Below, piece after piece: positions 4,345-57,352 of a DNA stretch of 64,000 bases. The notes under the pieces were generated by a model. The model had not been told where the DNA came from and ran no database searches. It saw only the letters and a list, made by a program, of their open reading frames with translations. The stretch lies in assembly GCA_032622095.1 (NCBI GenBank), contig CP136063.1:211623982-211687981 (forward strand), read 5' to 3'. Position 1 is the first letter of the stretch. Every line of letters begins with the position of its first letter. The stretch comes from Siphonodentalium dalli (Eukaryota > Mollusca > Scaphopoda > Gadilida > Siphonodentaliidae). A program made the translations under genes and the position numbers.

Positions 4345-4825
4345 TCTTTATATCTATATTATCTCCTAATTAGGAGATAATATCTCCTAATTAGGAGATA
4401 CTAAGTCCTAATTAGGAGATAGTATCTCCTAATTAGGACTTAGTATCTCCTAATTAGGAGATAGTATCTCCTAATTAGGACTTAGTATCTCCTAATTAGG
4501 ACTTAGTATCTCCTAATTAGGAGATAGTATCTCCTAATTAGGACTTAGTATCTCCTAATTAGGAGATACTAAGTCCTAATTAAGAGATACTATCTCCTAA
4601 TTAGGAGATACTATCTCCTAATTAGGAGATACTAAGTCCTAATTAGGAGATACTATCTCCTAATTAGGAGATACTAAGTCCTAATTAGGAGATACTATCT
4701 CCTAATTAGGACTTACTATCTCCTAATTAGGACTTACTATCTCCTAATTAGGACTTACTATCTCCTAATTAGGACATACTGGGACCCACATTTTTATTTT
4801 TATGTGGCACCAATACGCTTCCATA
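4345..4825. mobile_element. Palindromic minisatellite with right end of a TACGG-type foldback element
   Basis: About 23 tandem units near TCTCCTAATTAGGAGA (alternating with TCCTAATTAGGACTTA) fill 4353-4770. The right flank, read on the minus strand from 4825, is TATGGAAGCGTATTGGTGCC then CACATAAAAATAAA, matching the ends of the element at 56578-57252. The left end is not found, so the copy is probably truncated. Confidence 0.65.
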
Positions 4826-4835
4826 TTGCACACAC

Positions 4836-5264
4836 CGTCATTCTTATATATTAATTAAATGCAGTGAGTGACTCTCGATGGCGAAATCGTTTTCGTTAGT
4901 TTATCGCCGATAGATGCATGCGTCCCGAATCGTATAGTAAATATTTACATTGAGCGTAGTTCAGACCACATAAATTGGAATCACTGACCTTTATGCAATT
5001 TTTTGAGATTTTTGTTGAGTTATAGACATTAAGTTTTACTTTTAAGTAAAACTTAATGTCTATAACTAAAAAAAAATCTCAAAGAATTGCATAAAGGTCA
5101 GTGATTCCAATTTCTGTGGTTCAGACGAAGTTTTCTATGGAGTGGTGCGGTCGATTTGCTTCAGATTTTTGGCGATGTTAGTGGAATGGTACATTCCCCC
5201 AGTTGGCATACTGACTTATCAGTTTCACGCACCGGAACAAGTACATGATATGTCTTTAAAGTCA
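4836..5264 (+). repeat. Dispersed repeat, interrupted by a MITE
   Basis: Matches 18604-18885 in the same orientation (tcattcttatatattaatta, gtaaatatttaca, gagcgtagttcagacga, tttcacgca, aacaag). A partial inverted copy lies at about 11895-12033. The copy here is split at 4966-5119 by an insertion. Confidence 0.75.
4966..5119. mobile_element. 154-bp near-perfect palindromic MITE with 6-bp TSD
   Basis: Ends CCACATAAATTGGAATCACT / inverted CCACAGAAATTGGAATCACT; the arms meet at about 5043. TSD ttcaga at 4960-4965 and 5120-5125. The related repeat at 18733-18747 shows the uninterrupted site (gtagttcagacga), proving insertion. Confidence 0.9.
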
Positions 5265-5289
5265 CCTTACCTTATGTAACCTTATGTTG

Positions 5290-5969
5290 TTAGTGGACGC
5301 TGGCTTCTATAGATGCCACTATATCCACCTCTGATTCTTCATCTTCTATTTCTCCGAACTCTCCTGAATTTTTGTTTTTTGTTTGACTGATCGTATCAGG
5401 GTCTGTCAGCCTCAATTCAGCCTTGAAATTTAATTTAATTTCTTGGTCCTGCCAATGGTAATCGAGATTGTTTTTGAATGAATTCATGTCTTCTGCATAG
5501 ACGACTTTTTCTGCTAGATGATTCCATGGCTCCACCACTCTTAGGCTGAATGAGTATTTCCTCACGTCCCTGTTTGCTCCTTCCAGAAATAATTTATAGT
5601 TATGTCCTCTGGTTCTGAGTTCGGTGCTTCTTCTTAATATGTCATTCACTTCCGGATCATAGGTGTTAAATATCTTGAAGCATTCTATCATATCTCCTCT
5701 TATTCTTCTGTAGTTAAGTGTTGGTATATTTAGTTTCTTTAGTCTTTCTTCATATGGTAGTTCTTTTAATTCTGGTATTAGTTTTGTGAATCTTTTTTGG
5801 ACTTTCTCGAGCATTTCAATGTCTTTCTTTAAATGTGGACTCCAGGCCGGTTGGGCATATTCTAGATGTGGTCTCACCAGACTTTTGTATAATTTCAGCA
5901 TTGTTTTGGTGTCCGTGTGCGTAAATGCTCTGCGTATAGCTCCAGTGACTGCATTTGCTTTCTGTATTG
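5290..5969 (-). pseudogene. LINE (CR1/Jockey-like) reverse transcriptase C-terminal fragment
   Basis: Open frame of about 225 codons from about 5969 to a stop at 5290. It carries the thumb/connection end of a non-LTR reverse transcriptase: IQKANAVTGAIRR, YKSLVRPHLEYAQPAWSPH, EKVQKRFTKLI, YEERLKKLNIPTL, RRIRGDMIE, FSLRVVEPWNHL. The catalytic core and the endonuclease are missing, so it is a 5'-truncated copy as left by incomplete reverse transcription. The uninterrupted frame suggests fairly recent insertion. Clade assignment needs a tree. Confidence 0.85.
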
Positions 5970-6147
5970 GTCACATATTTATATATGCTACCATAACTCA
6001 TGCATGGCTCAGGCAACCGAATTTTAAGCATTTATGTTCCATGCATTAGATACAATTAATATTATGGACATGTATATATATATGGTGATGAAAATTTCAA
6101 CACAAACATATTGGCATACGTACTGAGTATGGATCTGGCAAGATTAA

Positions 6148-6630
6148 AGGTACTCAATCCGATCAGACGGTCCCCATATCATCAAGATACAACAACAACA
6201 TTTCTTCAAAATACGCTTTAAAATATAGTTATCAGAATCGATTAATTGCAATAAAAATAATGCTAACCATGCACTGTCAACTATGGTATAAGAATTCCCC
6301 AAAACGTGTTCTTTATCAACATTTTGTTCAACGAAATATCGCCGTATTATCACTTGAGTGTCACAAAATTTGGCCGTATTACCACTTGATTTTAGAGTTA
6401 TCCATCTTCATCCGCAATTTTGTCCGAGACCGTCCGTTTGGTGACGCTTTTCTGGGCCAAAAATAATTGCATATCTCGAGAAATAATGTCACTGAACTTC
6501 CAAAATCGATATCTGATCACTCTGAGGCTCTGAGCTTTGATTCGACTCCAATCAAATATTTTTACCCCCCCCCCCCCCCGCGAAACCAAAGAAATAGTAA
6601 TTTGGGAGCGTTAATTCGGATAATGCATCT
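6148..6630. mobile_element. TTAA-flanked MITE (family C)
   Basis: TTAA at 6144-6147 and 6631-6634. Ends AGGTACTCAATCCGATCAG and, inverted, AGATGCATTATCCGAATT. Inverted relative to a shorter copy at 42679-42956 (shared: gatcagacggtccccatatc, caacaacaacatttcttc, ttttagagttatccatcttc). A C-homopolymer of 17 bases sits near 6567. Confidence 0.75.
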
Positions 6631-6839
6631 TTAATTATATAAATGCCCCTTTTGGGTGCACATGGGGTCATATTATAAATGTATGGACACCCCATAATCC
6701 CACCTGTGTTAATGGGACTCATATATGGTACCGTATCTCATGCACATATATATAATTACTGACTCGTATATAGCGTTATGAACTCCGAAGGATTGCACAA
6801 TTGAAACAGAATCGTGAAAAATAATTTGGATATATATAT

Positions 6840-11000: not shown

Positions 11001-14000
11001 CGCTTAGATACTAGAATGTTTTTGTTTGTTTTGACAATCGGTAAAAGACGATGTTCAACTGCGAGGTACGATTAATATCCGATGGGCTATTATCGGCCGA
11101 TGGCCGATTCCGATTATCGGAACATCACTATTTGGTGGAAATTGGTGCTAAAAATTTTGTTATCAATTTTATTGCCCCTCTCCCGTACCGCATAGACTGA
11201 CTCGAACAGTGCCACTTTTAACATCTGTAAACCACACGATTAGATTCCTGATATCATGGAACTGATTATGTACAAGTTTAGAGGTAATCGGTGACTGAAC
11301 AAATTCTTTTCAAATTTAGTGACCACACCCCCCCCCCCCCCCCCCCACCCCCCCCCCATCTCTCATCCAAACGTCACCAATTGGGCATTTTTAAATCACA
11401 CGATTAGATTCCTTGTATCATGGAGAAGAGTTTTTATCAATTTGGTGGAAATCGGTGCTAAAAATATTTTTATCAATTTTGGTGCCCCTTCCCCTTCCGT
11501 GCACCTCTGACTCGAATGGTGCCATTTTTGACATCTTTAAACCACACTAATAGATTCATAATATCATGGATTATTGGTGGAAATCAGCAACAGAATATTT
11601 TGCTGCCCATCCCCCTTTTCTGCCCCTGCCAAAAAACAGCATCACTTTAGAAAATTTGAATCTGCACCATTATCTTCCTCGTGAACAGTTACCTTTGTTA
11701 GACCCATTTGGTGTCATCTAGATGGTCCCACGTGAATTTCTATAGACAGATATTCGAAAATATAGATATACATCGTGGAATTATTACATGTAGCTCACAA
11801 TAATAAAGTGGGAATGTATTAAATACATATTCGGGTGCGGGAAACTAGTAAGTTAGTATCCAGGCTCTATGCCAACTGGAGGAATATAGCATTCTAGTAA
11901 CATCGCTGAAAATTTCAAACAAATCGACTTTACCATTTCATAGAAAACATCGTCTGGAACTACTCGCAATTGTAAATATTTACTTCCGGATTCGGGACGC
12001 AGCTATCTGTGATAAGCTAACGAAAACGATTTGTGAAATGTTACGAAATCATATAGTGAAGTGCTCAAAGAACAATCATCTGATGTTTAAGCATAAGTCT
12101 TATGACAACATTCCGCTGACATATTATTGCAATGTTTCGTAATATCAGTTCCATTTGGGACTACTGACAACATGTACTTTTAAAGATGTTACCTGACCAG
12201 TGATTATAATGTGGAGAATTGTCAACTGTAAAATTGAGTGATTAAGCCATTGCAGTTCGAAAGATGTCAGAACAGATTTTGTGCATGTAAAATATTTGAC
12301 TTCTTTCACTTGTAATTGTACTTTTTCTCTTCAATTTCAGGTATATCAGGGAAGAGTCAGATTCTGTTTGCTTTGGTGTTCATCACAAGATATCTAGACT
12401 TATTTACATCATTTGTTTCTGTATACAACACCGCTATGAAAGTATTCTTCGTTTCGTCTTCGTTAGCTACAGTAGTTATGATTTACTACAAGTTCAAGGC
12501 CACTTATGATAGCAACCATGATAGCTTCAGAGTAGAGTTCTTAGTGGTTCCGGTTGGTGGTTTGGCAGTGCTGGTCAATCATGAGTTCACACTTTTTGAG
12601 GTGAGTCACTTTACATGATATATATGGTAAATAGTCTTGTCCAGAGTGTTTTCTGACGCTTACAATAGAACATGGTTCTAATAGTGTTATTGCCACTATA
12701 GATATTTACAATGAATATGGATCCTAGGGTTCTGTGAATATTCAAGATTAGAACAAGCTAATTAATACCATTATATTATGGCCCATTTCCCCATTAACGT
12801 CACACGGCAGTTTGCGCTCCAAAATGCACCTAATAATATTCGCTTTTGAATTTTTTCCGATGTCGAAATAGGTTGATTAATACCTGCACTATCTTTCTAC
12901 GAGCATTATATGTCCCAGAAAGACGCACTGAAGTCATTAAAAATACAACTTTGAATGTGATCCCATTCATAAATAGCCATTTGTATTTATCGGATATGGA
13001 ATGTCCGGAAAACAATATTGCATTATTTAGACCAAGACTATTTTAAAACTTCACGACTGCTTTCTCATCGTTTTAATCATCAAAATTCTGTCATACCATA
13101 AAGGTTTCAGAGCTACGGCCGCTCTAGATTTTCTTCCCATTGTCTCTAGTTTCGACAGCTGACCAAAAATTTAACCATACCTATACAAGATATATGTTTT
13201 ATATATGCAGTTCCAAATGACAACACCCTCACATTATTTAACCCTTCAGCTAAAACACATTCACGGTTCCTTAACTTGGTCTACTTATATTACCATAAAC
13301 ATTCAGAACTTGGCTTAAATTATCAACTGATTTACAAATTATTTACAGATATTAGCAGTTTGTTGATGTACAAGCCTTGAAATAGGGTGTCTGTCATTTG
13401 CAGAATGAGGTCCCCAGAGGGTGAATTTAGTTATGCTACCCTGCATAGCGGGCTAGCATCACCAAATTCACCCTCTGGGGACCTCATTCTGCTTACACCT
13501 CAGCAGAATGAGGTCCCCAGAGTGTGAATTTGGTGATGCTAGCCCGCTATGCGGGGTAGCATCACTAAATTCACCCTCTGGGGACCTCATTCTGCAAATG
13601 ACAGACACCCTATTTCAAGGCTTGTTGATGTATTGAGATTTACCCCCAGTGGCTATAGGGGTACCATTTCCCCCAACCCCTAGCGGAAATCCTGTTAGTA
13701 TGGTATATGTGGTTATACAAATACGTGTACATGTAAGTTCATGAGGTGTACTGATTTTGTTTGGTAGAATCTCCTCAGGTAATATTCACGATCAGTAATG
13801 ATGCCAATTGGATACGCTTTCTTTGCGAGATGGATGAGGTCTAACCGTCTTATGCTCTCTTGTTTACATTGAAAATGTGCATTCAGGTGACAATCTTTGG
13901 TCAAAAAAGAAATATGTTTTCACTGCACAATGAAATGGCTAGTTCTGATAACAGATTTATGTTTTCCCCCCAGATTCTGTGGACCTTTTCAATTTACCTG

Positions 14001-23180: not shown

Positions 23181-25805
23181 AGCTGATGACTCTGATCATT
23201 TCTTTGCGGGGAACACACACTCTATGGTTAAAAAGATTATTTATTTCTCTCCTTCTCAAGTTGTTCATCTTCATGTCTTTAGTGAATCTTTCTTTGAACA
23301 TTTACTCTGACATCTGTCACTCTGACATCTGTCACTCTTGCACCTTTCTAAGTATTACCTGTAGCTATCTTTAGTTTCTTTTTTGTGGGGTTCCTGTGGG
23401 ATTAAGTAAATTTTCACTCTGACAAAGTTTTTTTAATGCTTATTCTTATGACTATGGCATTTGTGCATTTATTAGAACCTCTTAATTGATGGAAGTGTGA
23501 ATCATTCTATAGTTTACAGCAGTTTTTATTTAAATAAAGATCCTTTATGTTGCTTGCCGTGTCCTGAACAGTTTGGATATATCATCTGTTCCTTAAATTA
23601 TTCAAAAGAAAAGATGGTTCAGACCGATTCCAATTGAGATGCACCTTGTTAATAAATAGTGTCTAGTTTGTTAATGAATTGTCATCCCTCATTAAATTTT
23701 TTTGTGGTCTGACGATGAGCAATGTCATATCATGTTTACTCTGTAAAAATGCCAACAGATACAAACATCATTGTAAATAAACTATATAAAATATATTTGT
23801 TTGTGAGTTGTCTTAAATTGTTACCCCACTACAAGGACAGGATCAAAGGGGTAAGCCAAGTTTGAAATGCCTCCCCCCCCCCCCCCCCCTTGGGTTGGAA
23901 CTTTACAAACTGGTACAAACTTTCCAACTTTTAATTTTAACATGACTCTTTCCCCCCCCCCCCAATTTTAGTTCAAAGTTTTGACCAAAAGTATGTAAAT
24001 ACATGACTGTTGGTCTAAATTCAAAAGAATATAAAACTGAGAACATATTTTGAATGAATGCGTTGAATGAATGACGCACGTCTCACGAATAAGTCCAATC
24101 ATCATTAATTTCTCCCCCCCCACGTCCCTGGTTTAAACTCGAATGGTATTGTACATTGTGATGCCACATTACATACTAGCGAAGTCACCTTAAACTCGGA
24201 ACCACATATATAATATTGGTTAATTTTACCGGTTGTAAGTTTATCTTTCTGAACTGCAGGGTTCTCATTCATAAGCACCAATCAGAAGTCAATTGTAAAA
24301 TGAAAGTTTCCAATCGAAATGAACATAGTGCAGGGACATGTCATGGTCGTAATGCAGTTAGACGGGAGGAAATTGGTAAGGAATCCGTTTTGTTCTCGAA
24401 ATGTGTGAACTGGTTTGCAGAACATATACAAAATCTGTTAAAATCCGCTTTGGGGACAATTCAACATGGCGTCCAAAATGGCAGTTGGTCTCTGACCATG
24501 CTGAATTTCTGCAGGATGTGCAGCAATTAATGGCAAATTGGCAATAGATTGAAATATATATACAAACAATGCTTTGTCGAAAACCATATTTGGAAACTGT
24601 CTGTCCCAAAAATCGACTGAAATTTTCATTTTTGGCAAAATTGAATAGCTAGTCCTATAAGAGTGAACACACTCAAAGAATGAGGAAGAATTGTTTCAGA
24701 TTATAAGAGAAACTTTTGTTCAGAGATGTACAAATTCTCTCTAAAAGTATATCTCACGAGAGAGCATGCAAAATCAGGGTCTCCCACAACGGTTAAATCT
24801 GAACTTTTGGGTGCCCAGAAACAGCAACATAATGCAGTTTCATTTGCACTGTTTATCTTGAATCGTGAGATTTATATGTGTAATTAAACAGTTAAATGTG
24901 ATTAATTGGGATCCACTGATTATGTAATCTTTTCTAGAAGCAGAAATATGTGTTCAGAGCAGTCTCACGAATAAGTCCAATCATCATTAATTTTGATATC
25001 TTCGACATCAGATATTTCAAAACCCACTGCTGTAGAACAGTATGATATATATTCATAGAGTAATGTGTAAAATATGTAGATCCTATTGCCTGTGTCTGAA
25101 AATAGTTGTGATAGCTGCCTCCGATCAAGTGATGAAACACAAATATTTCGCGTTCATCAGAAGAATGCATGGTGGTAAACTATGATAGCAATTTTTCAAA
25201 ACACAAAGGAGTATCATAGACTATCTTCAATAAATTCTAAACTTTACCAAAAATGCCTACATGCTCTGAGGCAGAGACTATGTTTATACATGTAAATACT
25301 ATCCGATTATACTCCGCAAGGTTACAACTGATACCTAACAGATGCATGACCCTTGTTTGATTTGAAAAAATTTCACTATGGAGGAAATATTTTTGCTGTT
25401 TTCTGAGTTCAAGTTCTTAACGCTGGTGAAAAATCAATGGATAAAACCCATTTTATTGATCTATCACTATACCAAAATATATTCAAATCCAACTGTTCGT
25501 ACATATCCAACAAGGCCAATAACTCTGACAAAAATCTATGGACAAAGCCCACTGCATCTTATAATCCTTCCATCGATGCTGGTCCAGTAGTAGTCCAACT
25601 AACTATTAATAGTCGGACCATTAATACTGGACTCACAATGAAAAAGTCCAACAAGGGTGGGAACTCTGGTAATGAAAGTGTCAATGACACAGTAGCTCAA
25701 CTTAGGTAGTAGTTAAAGGGGAAGGAAACCCCTCAACAAATACAGACCATTAATATATTTAGCATATCAACCAACCATAGTGTGATAAAATACCTCTCAT
25801 TTCTA

Positions 25806-28800
25806 ATAGGCCAGGCAAATATGGACATAGGTGTCGCCTCGAGAGGGAATTTATGGGACCTACATTTTTGGTTAGCGTAAATACTAAATTTTCGGAATCC
25901 GTATGTTGGATATGTCAGATAGGCAGACTTTTTTCTCACCGCATGGTTTTCTTGAGGCACCCGATGAAAAAATCGGTCATTTTTTAAATAAAGCCGACAT
26001 TATTGACAGAGTATTTTCACACATTTTGAGAAGAAATATTCGTCCAATTTTGATACCTGAGAGTGGGGCGATAACCAGAGTAGGGTAATACATGTAACCA
26101 TTGAATCTCGGAGTGACAATCATGACGTCATGTGACGTCGACTAATATTTTGGGTGAGACAAATATGACGATTCACGCAAAGCGTTGTCTTTCGTTTCTT
26201 TTAAATCACAAAGTAAGATGGGTATGCCACATTGTTTTATACCGTGTGAAACTACTGCCAATTGGCTATATTTTGATATATAACTTATCGCTGCAGGCCG
26301 CATTATTTTTTATCAGAGGCAGAAAAATCAACCCTCCCCCCTAAAGTTAAGATGCGCCATGCTGTGGTATAAGGCACACATAACTCACGGTTACATGTCA
26401 ATAGGCTTAATTAACACAACGACCGTTGAAAGTCTGCTAAAGAATGTAATAATATATAAGTTCCTGTCTACAAACTCGAACATTAAAGTAGAAACAATAT
26501 ATAATGTACCCCCAGACCCGATATTTTAATAAATTTTTGCAAAAAAATAATATAAAACGCATTTTTTTAATTTTCTGGAAGGCAAAAAAGGAAAAGAATT
26601 ATTAAGGATGGACATAATTCGTGTATACGGCAATTTCATTCCGCCTTGGATTAAAAAATTACATACTAATCCAAAATGGCTGCCAATATGGCAGCCACAA
26701 TATAGGTGGAAATTGGGAAATATGTAAGAATGCACAATTACTAGCTTGCTTGAATGGCTTAACTAACAAAGCTGTCGTTGATGAACTGCTAAACTATAGT
26801 TCAATGTATATATCCCGATTTAAAAACTCAAACAATAAAGTGAAAATTTTACACAATGTACCTCCTGGCACAAAATTTTGATAACACTTAGCTATTTTTC
26901 TCCAAAAAATAACCTAAAGCCATTTTTGTCATCTTCTCGGAAGCCATAAAGCGCAGAATGTAGCGTGGTGGAGATATTTGGTGTGTACTATAATTCAATG
27001 TCGTTTTTGGATTACAAAATGGCTTAATAACGCATTTATCGCCATTGCCGCCATCTAATGTCTCACACAACCCGAAGTATTATATTCATTGTATCATGTT
27101 ACTCTATTTAAAATTTCTACCAGAATAGTGCCCATTATTGACGAATCTTGCATTCATGAGCATTCGTGCTCAAGTAATCCCTGTCCCTTGAAACAGTTGG
27201 CAATTTGAGCGAGGTATTTACAGATGAACAGGATTGTTTAAAACGAAGAACCGAGTAACAGTAATACATTGAATGCCTGATCGTTATTTATGCCAGTTAC
27301 CTTTGACATAATCAATAAGAAATTACTTAAACCCGACAATAGAAGGTCAATCTTTCTCAAAGGATATTATTCCAAGTGCTACCAGACATGATGGTACATA
27401 TGAGGTGGATATGTCGTGGATACCAGTATCGAAGTCTGGGCTAGACGAGGTTGATGCGGGTTCACACCCCGACTTGATTGGGCGAAAATGGGACCGATTT
27501 TAAAGCTAGATGTGAGATAAGGAACATATCATTTTACCATCCGATAACTACATGACCATGTACTTCGATAAGAAATGATAATTTGTTCACACTCACTGAA
27601 GCAACCATATTTGAAGCAGTGATTTTGATTCTGAGTCAGTGCCTCCATTAATCTTTTATATATACAATCTACAATTGCTGTACAATAGCTTCGACCCACA
27701 GAAGACGGTCGTGATAACACCGAGTGAATTTTTCCAGACATTAAATCACCATCGCCGCTTTCATTGACTAGTGTCCAATAACGCAAAGATGAGATTCAGA
27801 AAAATATAGCGCTCGTCATACAAAATTAGTTCAGATTTTGCATCTTCTGAAAAATTGTTTGATCAGTGATAAACATAAGAATAGTCCAGAATGAGAATCC
27901 CTCCTGTGTGTCTAACTTAATTATGCAGTTTCTGTTGAACAAGATCGCCACGAAGGACCGCTTTATTTGCAATATATGAACGCGATAACCTTCAGAAATA
28001 TAACTGATGTTTCCAAATTGTTGGAAAAGTAAACTTGTCTACGTTATGTTACATTTGAACGGCCCATATTCAGACCAGGAGACCTGCTGCTGTGACAAGC
28101 ACCATTGGTGTTTGAAACGTAAAACTCATGCCATTAATGTTTCAATCGGGCTTTATTCAATATTCGTATTTACAGGCAACACCGGCGGAAAACAATATGG
28201 CGAATAATTCCTCGTCCCCATATCGTCCTGATTGAACAAAGACATGTGTATGTATTACCCACACGCTGTTCAGTAAATACTAAATTACGGCTATCGTGTC
28301 CAGTTACTGATTTCGCTCAGCACATTCGGAGTTGTTATTGATGAGTTATCGTAGATCAGATTCTGGTCTGCACAGAAGTTGTCATTTCTGAGATGCAGAG
28401 ACAAATTACACAAAGACTCGTGATCCCATTTTGTCTTACCCATTTGCACATCAAACCCTATCACAATATAATATCAGGATACGCACTATAGACGGTCCAC
28501 TCACGTCGCGCATAGTGGGGTAACAAAAGATACATTTGAATTTAACTGTAACACATCTGGCGTTGGATATGACCGGTGGGTGGAATTATAATGCTTTAAT
28601 CATGAACGGCCATAATCAAGATATGGTATGTTTTCAGACATCCGACCCGTTGGCATCAGCAGGTCCCTAACCGCATTATTTTTGGACTTATCTAGATAGT
28701 TATTATACGCTTCCTGGTATCAACCTTTGTATGGCATGTATACAAATAATTGCAATTGTCGTCCTTTTCATTTTGTTGTCATAATGAGCTAAAAGTTACA

Positions 28801-31232
28801 CTGGGATACCAAACGTTCAAAATGTATCAGTCTACATGATAAAACTCCATGCCAATTATCCGATATATATGTTGTTTTCTGAGTGTACAGTCTTTCAGAA
28901 GTAATCCTACCTACTCATCAGCATAGAAAGATATGGGTAATATGAGTGTTCATCTAGCATGGGATAACTGTCAGTATTTGGGGTACCTCGTCTTACAAGC
29001 AATTGTTCAGTCACTTCGAGGGCAAATGAGGTGACACGAGACTCCAGTACCATACTATACAGTGTAAGATACAATCGAAATGTATTGGAACATAGTTTGA
29101 CAGTTGTATGGGATTGACCACATTGCTGGTATTTTCGTTGTTGGAAATGTCGCTTAGAGCCTTGACTTTGATTTGCAACTTATGTACTGCTAGTACAAGC
29201 AAATACATTCCACCCGCTAAGCAGCTGGCAAACTACAAGAGGGATATCAACAAGGTTTACATCTCATTGTGTGCAAAATATGTGTCATGGAAAATAATCC
29301 GGTAAATGTTAGAATACAAAATTCAACGATTCTATTGCGTGATGGTGAAACAGAACGAACGTGTATAATGTGACGGTTTGATAATTTGCGGACTGGGCAG
29401 CAATTTCTATTGGTCAGTGAGATCCATTTATACTTACTTTTAGAACGGTATACATGAGACCCAATGTATCAGTAGCTCCGTTCTTGTAATCACGCCTCGT
29501 TGATAGAGGGTAACCAACGATTCGTATCAACATGAGTTATTTGATGAGGTATATATATCCGAATTGGTTAATTCTGTTATTCGTGGTCGCATTTTGTTAC
29601 AAATAGCCATAGAGAGTGCGAAGTATGCTTAAATATCGTGTTAGATGTAATATAACCCACACAATTCCATTATTCTTTTCGCAAAGATAGTCAGACAGCC
29701 ATCTGCCTTAAACTAATCATGTTCATTGTGAAATAATTTGCACGACATGCCACCGATTTTGAAGAACAAATCTTACTTGAGCGCGAATGAATGCAAATTT
29801 TGTCGATCCTCTCACTCGTGCGTACAATCTGGTTGTCATTTCAATAGAACTGGCCACTGTTACGTGATAGTATTGCAAAATGATATGAATCTAATAGGAC
29901 TATTGGTTTTATAAGACATTGCGATGGTGGTGTTAATTGCGACGTGACAGATTTTACAATTTCCATCCATATACCGGCAACCGTTTTGGCAGCCATTTTG
30001 GGGTTAATATGTCATGTACATGTAGTAACCGACGACGGCATGAAATTATCGTACATACAAATTATATCCATCCACGCTACATTATTGTCTTTACGCATTT
30101 CGAGAAGATGACAAAAAGAGGTTTTTGATTAGTTTCGGACTAAACTGATTAAATATTTAATTAAAAATTGGGAACAGGAGGTGCTTTGTGTACCGGTTTC
30201 ACTTAAATGTTCTAGTCGATGGGTCGGGATATACATATTACATAAAACTGTAGCAGCTTATCAACGGCCGTTGTGTTAGTTAAGCCATTTTGGCAAGAAA
30301 TCGCGTGTTCTTACAAATTTTACAATTCCCACCTATTTACCGGCCACCATATTGGCAGCCATCTTGTGTTATTAGGCCAGTTTTTAAACCAAGACGGAAC
30401 GAAATTACCGTATACACTAACTATCTCCACCCTTAATCCATTATTTTCATTTTTGCATCCCGTAAGAAGACAAAATGCATTTTTAGATTATCTTTTGGGG
30501 AAAAAATCTAAAATTTGTTAAAAAATTGGGTCAGAATGTACATTATGCAATATTGTTACTTTAATGCTCGGCTGTGTCGATCGAAACATATATATTAGAC
30601 AATACCTTAGCAGTCCATCAACTGCCGTTGTGTTAATTTTGCAATTTGGCACAGAATCGTGCGTTCTGTGTGCCTTACACCACAGCCTGCAGCCAATCAG
30701 CTTTAGGGGGAGGGTTGATTTTTCTGCCTTTGATAAAAAATAAGGCGACCAAAATCGATAATTGATATATTATAACATAGCTCATTGGCAGTAGTTTCCC
30801 ATGGTATAAACTAATTGGGCATAACCATCTTACTTCTGATCTTATAAGAAACGAAAGACAACGCTTTGTGTGAATCGTCATATTTTTCTCACCCTAACAA
30901 TTATTTTACGTCACATGACGTCATAACTGTTATTCCGAGATTCAATGGTTACATGAATTATCTTACTCTTGTTATCGCCCCATTCACAGGTATCAAAATT
31001 GGACGAATATCTCATCTCAAAAGGTGTGAATATACTCTGTCAAATATGTCGGCTTTATTGAAAAAATGACCGATTTTATCAACAGGTGCCTCAATAAAAC
31101 CACGCGGTGCGAAAAAAGTCCGCCTATCTGACAAAGCCAACATACGGATTCCGATAGTTAAGTGTTCATGCTAACCAAAAATTTAGGTCTCATAAATTCC
31201 CTCTCCAGGCGACACCTATGTCCATATTTGCC
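25806..31232. mobile_element. About 5.4-kb element with inverted arms over 1 kb long
   Basis: The sequence from about 25806 (ggcaaatatggacataggtg) inward to about 27010 recurs inverted from about 31232 back to about 29970. Matching landmarks: aattggacgaatat, tgacgattcacgcaaagcg, agaggcagaaaaatcaaccc, atattggcagcca, tgtcatcttctcg. Each arm itself holds two or three related modules of about 300 bp. The central 27.07-29.93 kb has no frame I recognise as a transposase. Long arms suggest a Mutator-like or foldback element, but no TSD was found. Confidence 0.7.
27071..29930. other. Centre of the long-armed element, no recognised gene
   Basis: About 2.9 kb less repetitive than its surroundings. Short open frames exist on both strands (for example minus 27529-27786 and 29011-29208) but none shows a motif I know. 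Could be an intron-split or decayed transposase, or host sequence caught between two inverted insertions. Confidence 0.4.
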
Positions 31233-31239
31233 TAGACTA

Positions 31240-32769
31240 TAAGTATGCACAAACTCAATGATATCACATCGAGTTAATTCAAAACTCTTGCTAATTGTGG
31301 CATGTCCATATTTATAAGATCATCACGTCACAGCCCCACTTCTGGCGTTACTCATCCTTAGTACAGATATTTTTAAAGGCTGTCACACTAAAATAATTTT
31401 GGCTTGTTTATTATACTGCACAAAAACCAAGCAATCACAACCTACTAAAACTACATACATTTTTTATATTATAAGCCAAACCGATTTAGTTATAATTTTA
31501 AAAATTAATTTAAGGCCAGTTATTATGAAATGTTTGTATGGACACAAAATTCACAAGTCCAACAAGAGCCATAACTCTGGTAAAAATAAATGTACCAATG
31601 CCCTAATATGTGTGTATCCTCCCCCCCCCCCCCCCCCCCCCCACCCCCAAGCTGCACTATCAGCATACCAAAGAACAATGAAATCAGATAATTCACACCC
31701 AAGTTACAAGGCAATATGTTTATACTGACAGATAGACAGAGCCCTCGACTATATTCCCTGAACTTGGGGGCATAACAAATGGGAAAAGTGAAAATGATAT
31801 TTTAAGCAACTTTAATAGATCGTAAAAAAATTGGAAAACTTCAGTTCATGTTTCAGAATCACTTTCATGTGTCCGTCATTATAATCTGATCCAGCTCTTT
31901 CTTATCTTAGAAACTTTATCCAAATTCCAGGTACTGGGACAATTTGCTGACCACCTCAGTTATGTGTAGCTGCTCCTGAAAAAATTACATAAAACTAGGG
32001 TCATGTTGGTCATTTGGACTGTCCGTGTCATTGAGTGTCTCTCATAATGCCTCAGTCAGAAACAAAGAGGAGCCAAAGAATAGGTTAATTCTCAAATGAA
32101 TACACTCAGAGTAAACAAATTGGACATGCATAAGAATAACCTTTTCTTTACCAAATACTCAACAGTTCTCTCAGAAAATGTATAGATAATAAGTTCAACA
32201 AACCAACCACAGGTCATTTATCTGCACTTGTATGATAGTTTTCATCTGTCTGTCGTCTGCTCATTATACCCCCACTTTCGAAGAAAATGGGGGGTATACT
32301 GGATTGACTGCGTCCGTCCGTCACGCTTTCTCCGTCCGTTTGTCCGACCTCATAACTCGAACAACTATGAACCGATTTCAATAATTTTTGGTATACATGC
32401 TTCTCACAATAGCCTCTCTACATGATGCGGCTAGGGATTGGCTCAGACTGTTTTTCGTAATATTACACCTCATTTTCGACATATTTTGACTTAGAAAATT
32501 CTGTCTGACTTAATAACTTTAACAAATATGAACCGATTTGAATAATTTTTTCTGTACAAACTTCTTGTTTTTCCTGAACACCCCTCCAAATGAATAATAA
32601 ACCTTTCCAATATTAAGAGTTATTAATTGGTTAATTCCATATTAGCTGAGTTATGAGACTAAGGCCTCATAACTCGGTTAATGTGGAAACAACCAATTAA
32701 TAAGATTTTATTAATTAGCAATGGTAAATTGTGTTCTTTCACGGGAGGACAAATATAAACATAAAGGTA
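31240..32769. other. Intergenic repeats downstream of POLG2
   Basis: Contains a C-run at about 31621-31641 and 'tttaccaaatactcaaca' repeat fragments (near 32145). From about 32265 it holds a block with ggggggtatactgg, ccgtccgtc and tandem 'cataactcg/aactatgaaccgattt' units typical of a dispersed minisatellite family. A candidate AATAAA for POLG2 is on the minus strand at 32707-32712. Confidence 0.5.
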
Positions 32770-35800: not shown

Positions 35801-38800
35801 CCAAAACATTTCAGTGCATTTCTCAAAACTATCAATCTCATGTTCCACAAGAATAAATATTCACTAATACAAATCATTCAAGTAATATACATGGAAACGT
35901 GGACGAGCCCCCCGGGCTTACTGACGGGTGTATACAGTAATACAAATCATTCAAGTGATATACATGATTATTCTGGGGCTTTGTGCACCACAGAACAGAT
36001 GTGCAAATGATATTGAGGCACTACAGTTTTAATTTACCCATCTGGCTGTTGAAAATGTTTTTTTATTATCACCACATTCAGTAGACCTTAAACCTTTCTT
36101 TACCAAATACTCAAACATGAGTAGTTTCCATAGGAAATGTTCAGATAATAGATTCAACAAATGACCATAGGGCAGTTGTTTAACTTATTATCTGAACATT
36201 TGCCACCAATTAATAGCAGCCACAAGTGCATGAAGCATGCGTTGGTGTTTACACCTCAGGCGCAGGTGAATGATGATGTCATATAATTGTTTCTATATTT
36301 TCTTTTGTGATGAGCCAAATTCTGGTGGCGTGAAGATTTTTTTGTGAAATTGACACATGACTTCCTTTTAATTACTGTCTGGAGATTGTTAAAATGCGGA
36401 TTCGGCAGTGGACCAACGAGACGAAAATAAAATTGTCAACTTCACAACTTCGAAGAATTCCCATGTGATTTTATAGGGATATTAGTTTCATTTAGACCAA
36501 TTTCGTTAGTTAGCTTAATGAAAACCTGAGAAGACGTCATGGCATGGTTCATGATGTCATTTACGTCACAATGACTTTGCAGGCCAGAATCGAGACAAGA
36601 GTTCACAATACATGACAATACTTGTCATGTCGTTTCCACCGGGGCCATTGCATTATGTTACAAAATTATTCTTAGCGTTATGTCATCGATAAAAGCAAAT
36701 TCGAGGCACATCGTGGGTGGTTGCTCCACTACGTGTCACGTACAATTCATGTTAGAAACCCTTCTGCTGTTGTATTATCTTTTCATCTGTCTGTCGTCTG
36801 AATATATTTCTTAAACATCCCTCCAGATGAATAATAGACCATTCCAATTTATACTGTTATAACTGAATGGGAGAATGCATTCAGTAAAGAAAGGTTTAAA
36901 TTTCATTCACCTCTGGTAGCATCTATTGAGTGTTGCTGTGGAATTGAGGTCGAGTACTGAGAGACCATGATTCTTCAGCTTCTGATGTAAATCTTGACCA
37001 ATCACTTTCAGATCATTCGTCTTCGCACCTGAGCAGAGCACCTGGACATGATAGGGAGCTATGTGGCTGTTCAGCTGTAAGAACTGAAGTAAACAATGGT
37101 TTAAATTGAACCTTTACGTTCAAGCCAGTTGTTTAAAGGCCCACTTAATTTTCGAACCCCCAGATCACATATATAAAATATATGTCATATTATATACCAT
37201 TTGAACGAGGAAGCTCCAAAACATTGTATTATCAACTTATCCGGTGTAATTAACTGTGAACATGTTGTTTTTGTTGAGTTACCGACATGTTTTTGGGCTT
37301 AAGTGTCATCTGGATTGTAGCGCAAAGTGTATTATTTTCAATGGAGGGGGAATAACTCTATATCTTAAAGATAGTTATTCCCCTTCCATTGAAAATACAT
37401 TTTTAGTCTGAATTCTGTTGCATTCTGGGAGCCATAATGGGGGAAATCTTTCTATGATTTCAGCTGTTTTCTATTTCTCTATGGACATCTTCTGAGACAC
37501 AGACATTTCAAATAGTGATGAAATATAGTATTTTAATCATATTTTATGGCATAGACTGTTATTAACACCGTATATCAAGGAACAAAACAAAAATAATCTG
37601 TGACTCGAAAATTAAGAGGGCCTTTAAATAAAGCATGACAACAAATCAGTCTTATTAAAATCAGACTATTAAACAAGCTAGTGTTCCATAGTCAGAACTA
37701 AATAGCCAGGAATTCCATTCAATTCCAAAGTCGAGCTTCAAGGGCTGAGAGGCCAACAATATATTGAAGCCTTATTTTGAATGCTTATTTTAGTGTGATA
37801 TGTCTGGCTGAAGTCTTAATTTTAATAGTTAACAGAAGATGTTTAAAGCCTTCGCCACAAGCCCTCATTTTCCGGAGTGCTTATGTGGGAGACCTAAGGA
37901 ATCGAATCCTTAGCGAGTGCTTACCTGCACTGCATCTTAAGCACTCGAGTCCTAAGCGAGTGCTTACTGTGATCGATATAAGCACTCGAGTCCTAAGCGA
38001 GTTCTTACTGTGATCAATATAAGCACTCGAGTCCTAAGCGAGTGCTTAATGTGATTGACATAAGCACTCGAATCCTTGGCGAATCCTTGTTGAAGGCTTA
38101 TTAAGCCTTCATGCTCGGTAAGGGAAATTTTCTGTCACATTGATAATTTCACATAGTGTTTACAAATTTAGAGATTATGACAACTAATTAAACTCTAATA
38201 AACAATAAACACTCTATGAAGAGTCGATAATTAACCAATATTATCTAGCAAGCGGTATAGAATTAAGTATTTCCAAGAATTTCAACAGTCAACAGTTGTT
38301 TGTTATTCACAAAAATGAAATGGAAACTGAAAGTAGATATCTGTCAATCGTAAATCTATTTGTTCACTGTGATGTCAATACTGCAGGGAATGCCTGCAAA
38401 AGCTATGGCAATGGTATGAATGTGAAATTGTTCAGTCTCTGAAAATCATAGCTTGTTCAATACTAGTAATCTAATTTTAATGAGAAACTGGACAATCAGG
38501 TGATTGTGGTTTGTTTTCCAAATCAATAATATGTATCCGAAGAATTTCGAAGCCACTACCTTACTTGCATTTAAATTCAATCAGTATTACCAGTACTATT
38601 TAAAACTGAGTGAAAAAATAGTACGACTCCAGTTTATACCAAACAGGAAAATCAAAGGGCTAATATGTTACATACATTGAGGAAAGCTGGACCGAATAGA
38701 TAATTATATTTACATGCGGACATGTAATCTGAACACCATTATTAATATGTAAATTATGGTAAAATCTTCAATGTTGCAATGCTTGAAAGAAATACACATA

Positions 38801-47800: not shown

Positions 47801-49599
47801 CCCAAATTCGAGCTTGACCTGTATCTTGATATGACTGATCCACATAAAAACAATATTTGCAATTAAAGGATCCAAACTTGAGATATCATCCGGAAACCGA
47901 AAAAGTGAGAAATTTTCTATGTAAAACAAGTCGAAAAAGGGCCACAACTCTCGCAAAAATGGGCGGAGCATACCCATATTCAAACTTTACCTGTACATAG
48001 GGCTGATAAACTCACATACCAAATTTGGTTCAGATATGGTCACACAAACTGAAGTTATCATCCGGAAACCAGAAAATTACAAGATTCTAAGTAAAAAAAG
48101 GGCCATAACTCTAGCAAAAATGGGCGGAGCAAACCGATATTCGATCTGACCTGTATTTTGGTCTGATAAACTCACCTATGAAATTTGCTTTTGATCTAAT
48201 AACCGAAACTAAAGTTATCATCCGGAAACCATTTCCGGACGGACGGACACCGCTATTTTAATAGTCCCCCGAAATAATTTTTTCGGGGGACAATAACTTT
48301 ACTACGGTGGCTGGATGAGGACATGGGAAATTTTATTTTTATCTCGTTTAAACGAGATAACTATCTCGTTTAAACGAGATAGCAGATGGGAAAATTTATT
48401 TTTATCTCGTTTAAACGAGATAACTTATCTCGTTTAAACGAGATAAGTGATGGGAAATTTTATTTTTATCTCGTTTAAACGAGATAACTTATCTTGTTTA
48501 AACGAGATAGCAGGTGGGAAATTTTATTTTTATCTCGTTTAAACGAGATAACTTATCTCGTTTAAACGAGATAGTTATAATACAACAGTTACTAGTGGCC
48601 AGTCCAGACGGTTGCGCTCGTATATACGTGGTACCCAAACACCATCCCATCCCATCACCCATAGTATATTGTGCTCCGCAGGCGCTCGTATATAGGTAGT
48701 TACCCACCCTTCACCCATAGTATATTGTGCGCCGCAGGCGCTCGTATATAGGTATAGTTACCCACCCACCACCCCATCCCATCACCCATAGTATCCAATG
48801 CGCTCGTATATAGGTTGTACCCACCCACCATCCCATCACGTCACCCATAGTGGTGGGATGGGGTGGTATGTGGGTAACTACCTATATACGAGCGCCTGCG
48901 GCGCATAAGATACTATGGGTGGCGGGATGGGGTGGTGGGTGGGTAACTACCTATATACGAGCGCCCGCGGCGCTCAATATACTATATGGGTGATGGGATG
49001 GGGTGGTGTTTGGGTACCACCTATATACGAGCGCTTGTGGCGCATAAGATACTATGGGTGGTGGGATGGGGTGGTGGGTGGGTACTACCTATATACGAGC
49101 GCATGTGGCGCATACGATACTATGGGTGGCAGGATGGGGTGGTGGGTGGGTTCAAGAAGTTCCCTATACATTCCCGGTGCAACCGTCTGGACTGGCCACT
49201 AGTAACTGTTGTATTATAACTATCTCGTTTAAACAAGATAAGTTATCTCGTTTAAACGAGATAAAAATAAAATTTCCCACCTGCTATCTCGTTTAAACAA
49301 GATAAGTTATCCCGTTTAAACGAGATAAAAATAAAATTTCCCATCTGCTATCTTGTTTAAACGAGATAGTTATCTCGTTTAAACGAGATAAAAATAAAAT
49401 TTCCCATGTCCTCATCCAGCCACCGTACTTTACAGCTTCGTACATGCAATAAAAACATTTCAATATTTAGTGTTTCTTAAATACATAATAAAAGATCAAT
49501 TATAACCTGGTATACACTTACCTGTCATTGGGCTGGGCATGAGTGAACGGAGTTTCCACAATATGGATATTATCTTGATTCTTTCTTGACCAAGATTCC
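32770..49599 (-). CDS. POLG2: DNA polymerase gamma accessory subunit (mitochondrial), 9 recognised exons
   Basis: Processivity subunit of the mitochondrial replicative DNA polymerase, related to class II (glycyl-type) aminoacyl-tRNA synthetases but without synthetase activity. In gene order the exons are 49599-49522, 45042-44987, 44043-43920, 42144-42039, 41334-41191, 39002-38871, 37074-36911, 33256-33160 and 32898-32770. All junctions are in phase, giving about 343 codons. Matches to the family: LDFCIKQRLSWWRQ in the core; GKDSMPHLITCRTDLETCF; HIAPYHVQVL opening the anticodon-binding-like domain; and NDELGIPYTLIIKDQ with GLVLLRSRDTSIK near the C terminus. The long insert found in vertebrate POLG2 between the N-terminal part and the core has no counterpart here, a layout closer to the shorter insect protein. 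The start exon is not certain. Confidence is high for the central and C-terminal exons, moderate for the first two and the last. Confidence 0.9.
33160..33256 (-). CDS. POLG2: POLG2 exon (C-terminal domain)
   Basis: 97 nt between acatttcag and a gtaaga donor. Encodes NDELGIPYTLIIKDQAF... to LLRSRDTSIK, a highly conserved stretch. The phase joins the previous exon (AG+G, Arg). Confidence 0.95.
33336..33617. mobile_element. 282-bp hAT-like MITE in a POLG2 intron
   Basis: Ends TAGGGCTTCACAGTATATCG and, inverted, TAGGGCTTCATGATATG. 8-bp TSD gtttaaac / gtttaaat (one transition) at 33328-33335 and 33618-33625. Confidence 0.85.
34011..34223. mobile_element. Full-length 213-bp TA-flanked palindromic MITE
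   Basis: CAGTAATGCCCTAAATAATC at the left end and its inverted match at the right, with TA on both sides (34009-34010, 34224-34225). Best copy of the family also seen at 4-181, 270-377 and 40958-41170. Lies in a POLG2 intron. Confidence 0.9.
34508..35170. repeat. Minisatellite, four units of about 165 bp
   Basis: Units with gaccccaaaatgactcgttc, catgacaaattttatgatga and gtacgacctgtagcc begin near 34551, 34720, 34884 and 35036. The block starts with CAAGCCTGAGTTTAGTGTG (34508), the terminal sequence of the element at 45511-47100. It is followed by a tail of cacacgcacgacgg and caagccatggcaatagctca, a motif common after such repeats. Confidence 0.75.
35224..35509. mobile_element. Palindromic MITE in a POLG2 intron
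   Basis: Arms AATAACGTGGGAATATATTT and inverted, with inner blocks aataatgtacttcactg / cagtgaagtacattatt. Modules right of it (to 35620) recur at 1085-1560. From 35620 to 36910 only fragments of the 'tttctttaccaaatactc' repeat (36085-36210, 36770-36900) are recognised. Confidence 0.65.
36911..37074 (-). CDS. POLG2: POLG2 exon (start of anticodon-binding-like domain)
   Basis: 164 nt between cagttcttacag and a gtgaat donor. Encodes LNSHIAPYHVQVLCSGAKTN... to NRCYQ plus two bases. The HxAPYxV motif opens the C-terminal anticodon-binding-like domain of the family. Confidence 0.93.
37137..37623. mobile_element. Full-length 487-bp TTAA MITE (family B)
   Basis: TTAA at 37133-37136 and 37624-37627. 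Ends AGGCCCACTTAATTTTCGA and inverted AGGCCCTCTTAATTTTCGA. Internal palindrome around 37350-37400 (ggggaataactctatatctt). Lies in a POLG2 intron, 63 bp upstream of the exon at 36911-37074. Confidence 0.88.
37890..38090. repeat. Minisatellite of 41-bp hairpin units
   Basis: About five units, each containing the inverted pair taagcactcgag / aagcgagtgctta separated by tcct. Spacing between copies of gcactcgag is 41 bp at 37941, 37982 and 38023. Lies in a POLG2 intron; 38100-38870 and 39003-40460 show nothing further that I can name. Confidence 0.8.
38871..39002 (-). CDS. POLG2: POLG2 exon
   Basis: 132 nt (44 codons, phase 0 at both ends) between tttttcag and a gtatgt donor. Encodes GKDSMPHLITCRTDLETCFVVF... 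to SKQGRQ. Matches the segment where the polymerase accessory subunit keeps the synthetase-like fold before the C-terminal domain. Confidence 0.93.
40461..40540 (-). repeat. tRNA-like SINE head (candidate)
   Basis: On the minus strand, tagccgaggtgcttgg resembles an RNA polymerase III A box and gggttcgaatcc is a good B box, 40 or so bases apart, with ggatgtccc and ctgacatg at the ends. This looks like the tRNA-derived start of a SINE rather than a working tRNA, because a proper acceptor stem is not evident. Confidence 0.45.
40738..40945. repeat. Three tandem 68-bp units
   Basis: Copies of aaccctttctatactaa ... ttatcccat ... gaaatgttcagataataag start near 40740, 40808 and 40876. The unit belongs to a repeat scattered through the window (for example 18420-18515, 36085-36210, 50040-50160, 61805-61950). 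Confidence 0.85.
40958..41170. mobile_element. TA-flanked palindromic MITE beside a POLG2 splice donor
   Basis: 213 bp, same family as 34011-34223, with TA at 40956-40957 and 41171-41172. It ends 20 nt from the exon boundary at 41191, so in transcription order it begins at intron position 21. Confidence 0.88.
41191..41334 (-). CDS. POLG2: POLG2 exon
   Basis: 144 nt (48 codons, phase 0 at both ends) between ttctgtccag and a gtgaga donor. Encodes SSQFMETELCSKGDD... with FDSITENIETITSYGE, which lines up with the family stretch before the VPH/MPH strand. A Tc1/mariner-type MITE begins at intron position 21 after this donor. Confidence 0.88.
42039..42144 (-). CDS. POLG2: POLG2 exon (core)
   Basis: 106 nt between gttttatttcag and a gtatat donor. 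Encodes SPERHEMLMTCFC... to LDFCIKQRLSWWRQ. The final motif matches the conserved core of POLG2 closely and anchors the gene identification. Confidence 0.92.
42679..42956. mobile_element. TTAA-flanked MITE (family C) in a POLG2 intron
   Basis: TTAA at 42675-42678 and 42957-42960. Right end reads inverted AGGTACTCAATCTGATCAGA, matching the left end at 6148. Shorter than the 6148 copy by an internal or left-side loss. Confidence 0.75.
43437..43790. mobile_element. TTAA MITE (family B), right end truncated
   Basis: TTAA at 43433-43436, then AGACCCATTTAATTTTCGAG. It is inverted relative to 37137-37623 internally, with the palindrome ttccattgaaaa / ggggaataactctata near 43660-43730. Confidence 0.75.
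43920..44043 (-). CDS. POLG2: POLG2 exon
   Basis: 124 nt between ctgttttccag and a gtatgt donor. Encodes LLDHFHSHLWESQ... to SGSFPL with split codons at both ends. LPLTVLTSGIVL aligns with the strand before the core of the family. Another frame of this exon is discussed among the findings. Confidence 0.8.
44160..44520. repeat. Minisatellite related to that at 45626-46700
   Basis: Two to three units of about 150 bp with agatttccagataaccaaga, ggataactctaaaatgg and catgatggtgaa. Lies in a POLG2 intron. Confidence 0.65.
44987..45042 (-). CDS. POLG2: POLG2 exon (short, N-terminal)
   Basis: 56 nt between tttctttaacag and a gtatga donor. Encodes LSEVSNFNGFYPRQSLKE; only this frame is open. It resembles the short helical segment at the start of the conserved part of POLG2. 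Phases fit both neighbours. Confidence 0.65.
45511..47100. mobile_element. 1590-bp hAT-like element carrying a minisatellite
   Basis: Ends CAAGCCTGAGTTTAGTGTGC and inverted CAAGCCTGAGTTTAGCGTGC. 8-bp TSD ctggaaat / ctggaaag at 45503-45510 and 47101-47108. Just inside the right end is the gcagaatgaggtc...gggtgaattta block also found in the 254-bp MITE at 13371. Most of the interior is the tandem repeat at 45626-46700. Lies in a POLG2 intron. Confidence 0.82.
45626..46700. repeat. Six-unit minisatellite, unit about 172-176 bp
   Basis: Units with tttccagataaacaaagatg, aataactctagaatgg, gtcctcatagtagtgaacat and gaagttatgacatgaacaga. Starts of the tttccagataaac motif lie near 45810, 45986, 46158, 46334 and 46506, with a diverged first unit near 45645. 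Ends in a cagacgcacgga run and a hairpin of cccccc...gggggtata at about 46720-46748. Confidence 0.85.
47560..48296. repeat. Dispersed minisatellite element with terminal hairpin
   Basis: Three units of about 150 bp with gggccataactctagcaaaa, atgggcggagca, ctgataaactcac and tcatccggaaacca. Closed by ccggacggacggac and a hairpin tcccccgaaataattttttc/gggggaca. The left side begins near ggccacagtgtcccccgaac, echoing the right hairpin. Confidence 0.75.
48303..49427. mobile_element. 1125-bp foldback element with palindromic minisatellite arms and 6-bp TSD
   Basis: Ends TACGGTGGCTGGATGAGGAC and its exact inverted match. Perfect TSD ctttac at 48297-48302 and 49428-49433. The outer arms (about 48340-48586 and 49210-49400) are tandem copies of the self-complementary unit ATCTCGTTTAAACGAGAT. 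The inner arms (about 48587-48840 and 48860-49205) are inverted arrays with cccatcacccatagtat and cgctcgtatataggt. The whole element can fold on itself. It has no coding content; open frames inside are low-complexity artefacts. Confidence 0.92.
49522..49599 (-). CDS. POLG2: POLG2 exon (N-terminal, divergent)
   Basis: Acceptor ttctcaaag and donor gtaagt on the minus strand. Encodes ESWSRKNQDNIHIVE... to AQPND plus two bases; the next exon supplies the third (AGT, Ser). Not conserved in sequence; assigned by position and phase. Confidence 0.6.
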
Positions 49600-49712
49600 C
49601 TTTGAGAAACAAAAGTAAATTTTACTATACATGTAGAATAGAATAATTGGCTAAAAGCACAATAGCAAAGAAGTCCTTGTTAAGATTATTAAACAAAATC
49701 TAGAGACCATTT

Positions 49713-55533: not shown

Positions 55534-55815
55534 TCAGGGAGAACCCAAAATCGATGTACTAAACCTTGACTTGTGTAAAAAACCTCGATCGAGGTTCTTC
55601 GAGATCATGTGACCACTGGTCAAAATATACACCAATGATATAAGGGGAAACACTCTAGACCAAATATGATACTAATGGAAGTAATATAGTGAGGAGTATT
55701 TCATCTTACACTATGGTAGCGAGTCCATGAAGCTGTTGACATGATCTCGAAGAACCTCGATCGAGGTTTTTAATACAAATCGATGTTTAGTACATCGATT
55801 TTGGGTTCTCCCTGA
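55534..55815. mobile_element. 282-bp MITE with long terminal inverted repeats
   Basis: TCAGGGAGAACCCAAAATCG at left and inverted at right, then a second inverted block aacctcgatcgaggtt/tcttcgagatcatgt. No clear TSD. Between 53563 and 55533 there are AT-rich sequences and a G-run near 54973 but no recognisable gene; the same holds for 55816-56577. Confidence 0.8.
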
Positions 55816-56577
55816 CCTGTTTCAGCTGCATAATTAAGAATTTAAGTGCATTCATTCAGTGTGACCATGCATTGCATGATGCACGAAAACGGGCGAATTT
55901 AGTTCAAACAGGTCTAAAACTAAATTGTTTATCAATAACAAATGATGGGAATAACATTTTGTTAGGAATCATGTGAAATTGGAAGTGTTCGTACGTTTAT
56001 GGACTTTTAATTTTGACTATTGTCGTGAGATTTTTCAATCATCGTCGCCGGCTGTTTTCTAAAAATTAAGAATTCTCCCATTGGAAAAACGAAACAAGCA
56101 AAAGATAAAACTTGACATAATGTTTTAGTTTTTTTATATTGCAAAGTAAAAGTAACAACAACTTGTCTTATTTCTGTAATAGTATAAAATCTAGATGTTG
56201 TTAATCAACATGTTGGATAGATAACAAGTTGTGGACTACATATTGAGTCCGTTTCTACCTAACCTAATAAAAATTAGTACTATATTATTTACCGACTCAT
56301 TGAACATCACTTCCTGTTGTGTTGTCAAATGTTTTCAACATTAATTCGGAGTCAAAACAAAGCGGTAAATGTCAAGTTTGCGATAATACTATCACAAAAT
56401 TCACTCTGACATGTTTTTATCCATATTTTGTTGTCACAAACGACATAATTTGAAGTGTTCAATTTGTTGATTGGTGCAGGCACTGTTGACGTGTTGTTGT
56501 GCAGGCACTGTGCAATGTTATTTTTTTTCCAGCAATGTTATTTTTTTCCCCGCAAATAAATGAATAACTCATTCATC

Positions 56578-57252
56578 TACGGAACCATCCAGAAGCCACA
56601 TACAAAAAAATAATTCCACGGCTTAATCGGCGTAACTATGCCAATCATCGGCACACTTACGCCAACCATCGGCGATCTTCATCATTCTCATATACATATA
56701 CACTGACCATCGGCATAGTTACGCCGAACATCGCCATCGGCGTATATATGCCGAACATCGGCGTATATATGCCGAACATCGGCGTATATATGCCAACCAT
56801 CGGCGTATATATGCCGACCATCAGCGTAGTAATGCCGACCATTGGCGTATATCATCGGCGTAACTAATTCTCATAACTATGCCGATATATAGGGCGTGAA
56901 TAAAGGCAAGGAGACCAATTGCAAGTGTCCTCTGAATTAACCCACACCTGTCCTAGTAACCTAAACATATGCATTTCTGTTCATTAGTTCATTAATTCTT
57001 ATTGGGGGGGGGGGGGGGGGGGTAAACATGAATTTTATAGATTTGGGAGCCGAGAGATGGTCGGTTTAACTATGCCGATGATTTACATATATATGCCGAT
57101 GATGGGCGTATATATGCCAATGGTCAGTGTAACTACGCCGATGGTCAGCGTAACTATGCTGATGATCGACGTAACTTCGCCTATGGTCGGCGTATATACG
57201 CCGATCTAGGCATGGAATTTATTTTTGTATGTGGCAGCTCCATGCTTCCGTA
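56578..57252. mobile_element. Foldback element with 'catcggcgtatatatgccga' tandem arms
   Basis: Ends TACGGAACCATCCAGAAGCC then ACATACAAAAAAATAATTCC, with an imperfect inverted match TACGGAAGCATGGAGCTGCC. TSD ttcatc / ctcatc (one transition) at 56572-56577 and 57253-57258. Arms (about 56620-56885 and 57060-57205) are tandem, self-complementary units of about 22 bp around catcggcgtatatatgcc. A G-run lies near 57005-57022. Confidence 0.82.
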
Positions 57253-57352
57253 CTCATCCAAATCTCTGCACTGCAGCGATTATATCATTCCCAGCCCTCT
57301 TAATTCAGATTGTTTGGCTTCGTCAACCATTTGCCATGGCCCTGTTTGCTTC

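Follow-up and report, generated by a model that had tools for sequence, protein, structure and literature searches.

The main oddity of the DNA analysed here (the window, a stretch of 64,000 bases with 36% G+C) is a pair of inverted-repeat elements, E2 and E3, which have unrelated palindromic 21-bp units behind the end of one family and at nearly equal distance from it; the comparison involves two elements, and E3 is a remnant with a single end. A third element, E1, combines palindromic arrays with an end of a different family. We propose that these are non-autonomous IS3EU-type elements of two families (E1; E2 with E3) in which subterminal arrays turn over through hairpins, an explanation on which we are evenly divided. 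The features are as follows.

48297..48302, plus strand: left TSD of E1, CTTTAC
48303..49427, no strand assigned: E1, complete inverted-repeat element, both ends TACGGTGGCTGGATGAGGACATGGG...
48323..48574, plus strand: E1 left array, made of four 64-bp repeats that contain two 20-bp palindromes TATCTCGTTTAAACGAGATA apiece
48646..49151, no strand assigned: E1 inner minisatellite, rows of 57-69 bp
49220..49407, minus strand: E1 right array, three inverted 64-bp repeats of the same kind as in the left array
49428..49433, plus strand: right TSD of E1, CTTTAC
56572..56577, plus strand: left TSD of E2, TTCATC
56578..57252, no strand assigned: E2, complete inverted-repeat element, TACGGAAGCATGGAGCTGCCACATACAAAAATAAA-type ends, TACGG..CCGTA
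56627..56885, plus strand: E2 left array of degenerate TCGGCGTATATATGCCGA-like units, steps mostly 21 bp
57061..57204, minus strand: E2 right array, seven units at 21-bp steps
57253..57258, plus strand: right TSD of E2, CTCATC, matching the left TSD at 5/6 positions
4356..4780, no strand assigned: E3 array, 21-bp period, TATCTCCTAATTAGGAGATA, two inverted arms
4786..4825, minus strand: sole remaining end of E3, TATGGAAGCGTATTGGTGCCACATAAAAATAAA..., alignable with the E2 end

The first-pass annotation had reported related ends at these places (48303/49427, 56578/57252 and, on the minus strand, 4825), and they are indeed present. TAYGG..CCRTA termini occur at both ends of E1 and E2 and at one end of E3. 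According to the accessible text of two papers, IS3EU elements have ends TAYGG..CCRTA, 6-bp TSDs and TIRs over 30 bp (PMC12730594), or TA..TA termini and TSDs that are usually 6 bp (PMC10045372). The outer arms of E1 are 208 nt long and 96% complementary, and the terminal sequences of E2 are identical at 29/35 positions with one 1-base gap. The TSD is exact in E1 (6/6), and in E2 five of its six bases agree. The 6-bp duplications claimed for both elements thus stand with a mismatch in E2; in E1 a 7-bp repeat, ACTTTAC, combined with an asymmetric end also fits the flanks, so that 6 bp is the simplest but not the sole possible reading. Because TAYGG and the 6-bp TSD of E1 and E2 match the printed IS3EU signature, the layout common to the three elements is best read as the signature of that superfamily, and the annotation's view that the ends belong to no recognised family does not hold against the signature given in PMC12730594. 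In their TAYGG..CCRTA ends, TIRs over 30 bp and 6-bp TSD, E1 and E2 resemble non-autonomous members of IS3EU (IS3EU/GingerRoot), as far as these are described in the sections available (PMC12730594, PMC10045372). The same sections make no mention of palindromic subterminal arrays, which E1 to E3 have. Against an IS3EU reading, no transposase was found by Pfam in 12 frames of the window, including two that overlap E1 and two that overlap E2.

Foldback denotes a structure, not a clade. Long inverted tandem-repeat arms of this kind are found in E1 and E3; the arms of E2 show the layout in degenerate form.

Irrespective of their cores, TAYGG..CCRTA pairs with a spacing of 80-3500 bp were sought throughout the window, one mismatch being tolerated in the 6-bp flanks. 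The scan returned 10 pairs, compared with a mean of 4.2 in 30 randomised windows. Only E1 (TIR score 45) and E2 (26) exceeded the best score of the randomised windows (13.5); the third-best real pair scored 11.5. The ends were then compared by alignment, and 232 further 40-mers of the window that begin with TAYGG served as controls. The right end of E2 and the end of E3 align over 33 bases with a single 2-base gap and are identical at 27 of them, roughly as close as the two E2 ends are to each other (29/35), and their score of 18.5 was equalled by 0/232 controls aligned to the E2 right end. By the same measure, the E1 end had nothing alignable to the E2 or E3 ends past TACGG: its score of 7.5 with the E2 right end was reached by 89/232 controls (46/232 when these were scored against the E2 right end), that of 5.0 with the E2 left end by 229/232 and that of 4.5 with E3 by 231/232. 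On these scores E2 and E3 are judged to be one family and E1 another, since the three together could not be aligned beyond the superfamily signature. The single foldback family first proposed is therefore retained for E2 and E3, and not for E1, which has only TACGG in common with them and the 6-bp TSD in common with E2. The end similarity, whose loss on proper alignment had been named as grounds for abandoning the proposal, likewise disappears for E1 and persists between E2 and E3.

The two ends of E1 are identical (TACGGTGGCTGGATGAGGACATGGGAAATTTTATTTTT) and of the TACGG..CCGTA type. Its 14 TATCTCGTTTAAACGAGATA units are paired 22-23 bp apart within the 64-bp repeat, which also includes the subterminal ATGGGAAATTTTATTTTT, and the first unit lies 37 bp from the element end. 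The unequal number of repeats, four in the left arm and three in the right, is turnover of the arms. In E2, 17 units around TCGGCGTATATATGCCGA were counted at steps of mostly 21 bp (windows with fewer than 12/18 matches to the unit were excluded), the first of them 49 and 48 bp from the two ends. E3 has 19 TATCTCCTAATTAGGAGATA-type units at exact 21-bp steps and a variant 20th, which is excluded from the unit counts; the first unit lies 47 bp from the surviving end. Its arms are 95% complementary and meet at a loopless junction. A left end was looked for and none was found, so no TSD of E3 was found either. The spacer letter changes along the 19 units, from A and C to GGGGGGG and CCCCCCCCCC, that is, A C G(7) C(10). 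A variant half-site stands on the right side in seven units and on the left side in four, and the last three units combine the right-hand variant with the other spacer. The order of half-site states matches between the arms in 6/9 units in the best register.

Self-complementarity of the consensus was 0.96 in E1 (23-bp row), 0.95 in E3 and 0.76 in E2 (21-bp row), values matched by 0/500, 0/500 and 13/500 shuffled units, respectively. The claim that all units are self-complementary is thus borne out for the outer arrays. The palindromy of E2 is the weakest of the three: by locus its left sub-arrays gave p 0.11 and 0.03, both failing p 0.02, and three of the four TRF rows of its right array gave p 0.003-0.02 and the fourth 0.14. 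The claim fails for the inner minisatellite of E1, where the 57-69-bp rows of the basic period show no palindromy (p 0.13-0.53) and p 0.01 was obtained solely in a 139-bp double row. Over the whole window, and leaving aside tandem arrays with units below 10 bp, 5/7 array loci inside the elements were palindromic at p 0.02 compared with 4/22 outside (Fisher p 0.016), a generous test in that loci of one element are non-independent, E3 had been chosen beforehand, and the 139-bp double row alone accounts for one of the five loci that pass inside.

These counts bear on a simple reading by coincidence or selection, in which palindromic arrays are widespread in a repeat-rich genome, three happened to be picked near TAYGG ends, and ends and palindromes have no link. 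Four palindromic arrays outside the elements (1582-1718, 2670-2744, 13400-13595 and 37938-38076) fit such a reading, as do the unalignable end of E1 and its non-palindromic inner rows. We nevertheless think it improbable, as E1 and E2, both of which bear arrays, were what stood out in a scan that was blind to cores, and the excess of palindromic loci inside elements, with the reservations just given, points the same way.

Three different cores had been described, and for two of the pairs the difference is upheld. The core units of E2 and E3 are alike at 9/20 positions (p = 0.59, chance level) and those of E1 and E2 at 8/20 (p 0.87). E1 and E3 units, in contrast, agree at 14/20 (p about 0.008, uncorrected for three pairs): both contain TATCTC-N8-GAGATA, with the outer six bases identical on each side, and on this comparison their cores are not clearly unrelated. 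The pair with a common end (E2 and E3) is therefore without a common core, and the pair with a partly common core (E1 and E3) is without a common end. This mismatch may reflect chance, modular exchange or a common recognition half-site. The broader suggestion of the annotation, that new palindromic cores appear within conserved ends, is accordingly narrowed to the pair of E2 and E3, and E1 drops out of it.

One account of this pair is that IS3EU-type elements keep their ends and repeatedly swap the subterminal array for an unrelated palindromic unit, leaving the phasing of about 21 bp and the end distance unchanged. Recognition of the dimer type, or a hairpin intermediate of transposition, would then require symmetry and spacing and not a particular sequence, and E2 and E3 would be two post-swap states of one family. 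We regard this as unlikely.

The main alternative, somewhat better though still doubtful, is that the units are binding sites of a dimeric protein, most likely the DNA-binding domain of the transposase, set about two helical turns apart, and that divergence of the transposase and of its binding specificity made them differ among elements. Outer-array steps of 21-23 bp in all three elements (within unit pairs or along arrays) and a first unit 37-49 bp from the end would fit such sites, as would the outer bases common to E1 and E3 around differing centres. Watson-Crick pairing in E2 units also exceeds what a model of random mutation predicts (108/153 pairs kept versus 97.8 +/- 3.3), but that comparison ignores shared descent and uses units picked by likeness to the consensus. 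There is a possible precedent in Galileo, where the available text places transposase sites behind a conserved end of about 40 bp and in TIR repeats (PMC3688188). However, E2 and E3 have common ends and therefore probably one transposase, and yet their cores differ; moreover, half of the site is altered in 11/19 E3 units.

Under the preferred explanation, hairpin-driven turnover, a transposase supplied from elsewhere, which we infer to be of IS3EU type, would recognise the conserved terminal 35-40 bp and produce the 6-bp duplication on integration. The sequence behind the end would be unconstrained, and arrays of short palindromes could expand and be replaced there. Every unit and every pair of neighbouring units could fold into a hairpin; there, replication slippage and template switching would duplicate units, flip spacers or half-units, and favour units that are self-complementary. 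Any near-palindrome near the end could seed a new array, and related elements may therefore carry unrelated palindromic cores. Predicted folding of single-stranded DNA gave -16 to -18.8 kcal/mol for neighbouring units and -4.5 to -5.6 for single units. In yeast, template switching at inverted repeats is described as leading to arm homogenisation and spacer inversion (PMC8604942, in the part available), and the mixed orientations within the E3 array resemble switching of that kind. For tandem repeats inside MITEs, stem-loop models appear in the accessible portions of PMC8268682 and PMC12628747. The 4/22 loci outside elements also favour such turnover, as palindromic arrays arise beyond the elements too. 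On the other side, a purely neutral process does not predict that E2 and E3 have a period of exactly 21 bp, or that their end distances are similar. One-sided changes, found in 5/14 E1 units and in the 11 altered E3 units, are compensated in none, which counts against ongoing palindrome repair in E1 and E3. The palindromes may aid transposition or may be a by-product of copying.

Several known systems share part of this architecture, as far as the accessible texts describe them. Galileo of Drosophila (P superfamily, foldback-like) has a short conserved end followed by long, family-specific tandem-repeat TIRs, with transposase sites within some of the repeats (PMC3688188, PMC4168063); unlike E1 to E3, it belongs to another superfamily and has a 7-8-bp TSD, its repeats are longer (in one copy from D. 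willistoni, about 140 bp), and those texts do not describe palindromy. Tetris, a foldback element of Drosophila virilis, likewise has tandem repeats in its TIRs, which seed satellites, and an end in common with another element; it differs in its TIR-220 repeats, and the word palindrome is absent from the text available (PMC4079207). A Xenopus MITE (Hikosaka and Kawahara 2004) has tandem repeats inside the element and a stem-loop model of their origin in the accessible part of PMC12628747, but it belongs to another transposon group and its repeats derive from internal MITE sequence.

No mention of a palindromic core in an IS3EU or foldback element turned up in the accessible excerpts of the open-licence literature, Repbase aside. 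A literature search for the core letters hit, among the matches listed, the shortest word only, in unrelated contexts. In viral contigs the core pattern occurred at two loci, as single sites without an array, and the end pattern in at least 120 stretches. Among the 122 viral loci listed, no TAYGG/CCRTA pair with a spacing of 80-4000 bp combined near-matching 6-bp flanks with a TIR score of at least 13, and these loci were therefore dismissed as chance. Stricter end patterns had 0 matches in viral contigs, and the E1 end 0 in prokaryotic genome contigs; the collections being viral and prokaryotic, absence from them says little. For Foldback and Phantom repeats, the choice between arrays that bind protein and products of replication driven by hairpins is called untested in the text seen of PMC3688188. 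If the same ends are found on many copies whose cores are symmetric and phased alike yet unrelated, that question becomes directly testable, and the birth of new repeat units inside transposons is made visible.

Other repeats of the window were noted alongside these elements. At about 1530-2786, some 0.9 kb lies between two arrays whose 20-bp units are near-palindromic (GCGCAATTAATTGCAC...). A fourth element here (20-bp units, left TACGGGCATTAG) was considered and rejected because TAYGG is missing from the corresponding place on the right and the resemblance of the two sides continues beyond the supposed end. The outer left and right sides scored 13.0 against each other (reached by 0 or 1/232 controls, by side); the right side resembles the E2 right end weakly (10.5; 4/232 controls from the E2 side). 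A short GATAGCCACATAAAAA tandem at 62623-62735 resembles the subterminal GCCACATAMAAAA of E2 and E3, with no such element end seen there. The array at 37938-38076 consists of tandem units of 41 bp whose layout, TAAGCACTCG..CGAGTGCTTA, resembles a hairpin, and no TAYGG end was recognised with it.

A 226-aa open frame on the minus strand at 5293-5970, which we take to resemble the C-terminal part of a LINE reverse transcriptase, had no Pfam match. The 5.4-kb stretch at 25803-31243 is bounded by inverted 538-nt arms, 86% complementary, whose outer ends read AGGCAAATATGGACATAGGTGTCGCCT, and has weaker arms within; none of four frames inside or close to it matched Pfam above the curated cut-off. 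The inverted repeat at 13370-13625 has 124-nt arms, 98% complementary, around an 8-nt loop and is composed of about two 103-bp self-complementary units. An inverted-repeat element at 55535-55814 has the ends CAGGGAGAACCC..GGGTTCTCCCTG and, further in on each side, AACCTCGATCGAGGTT palindromes.
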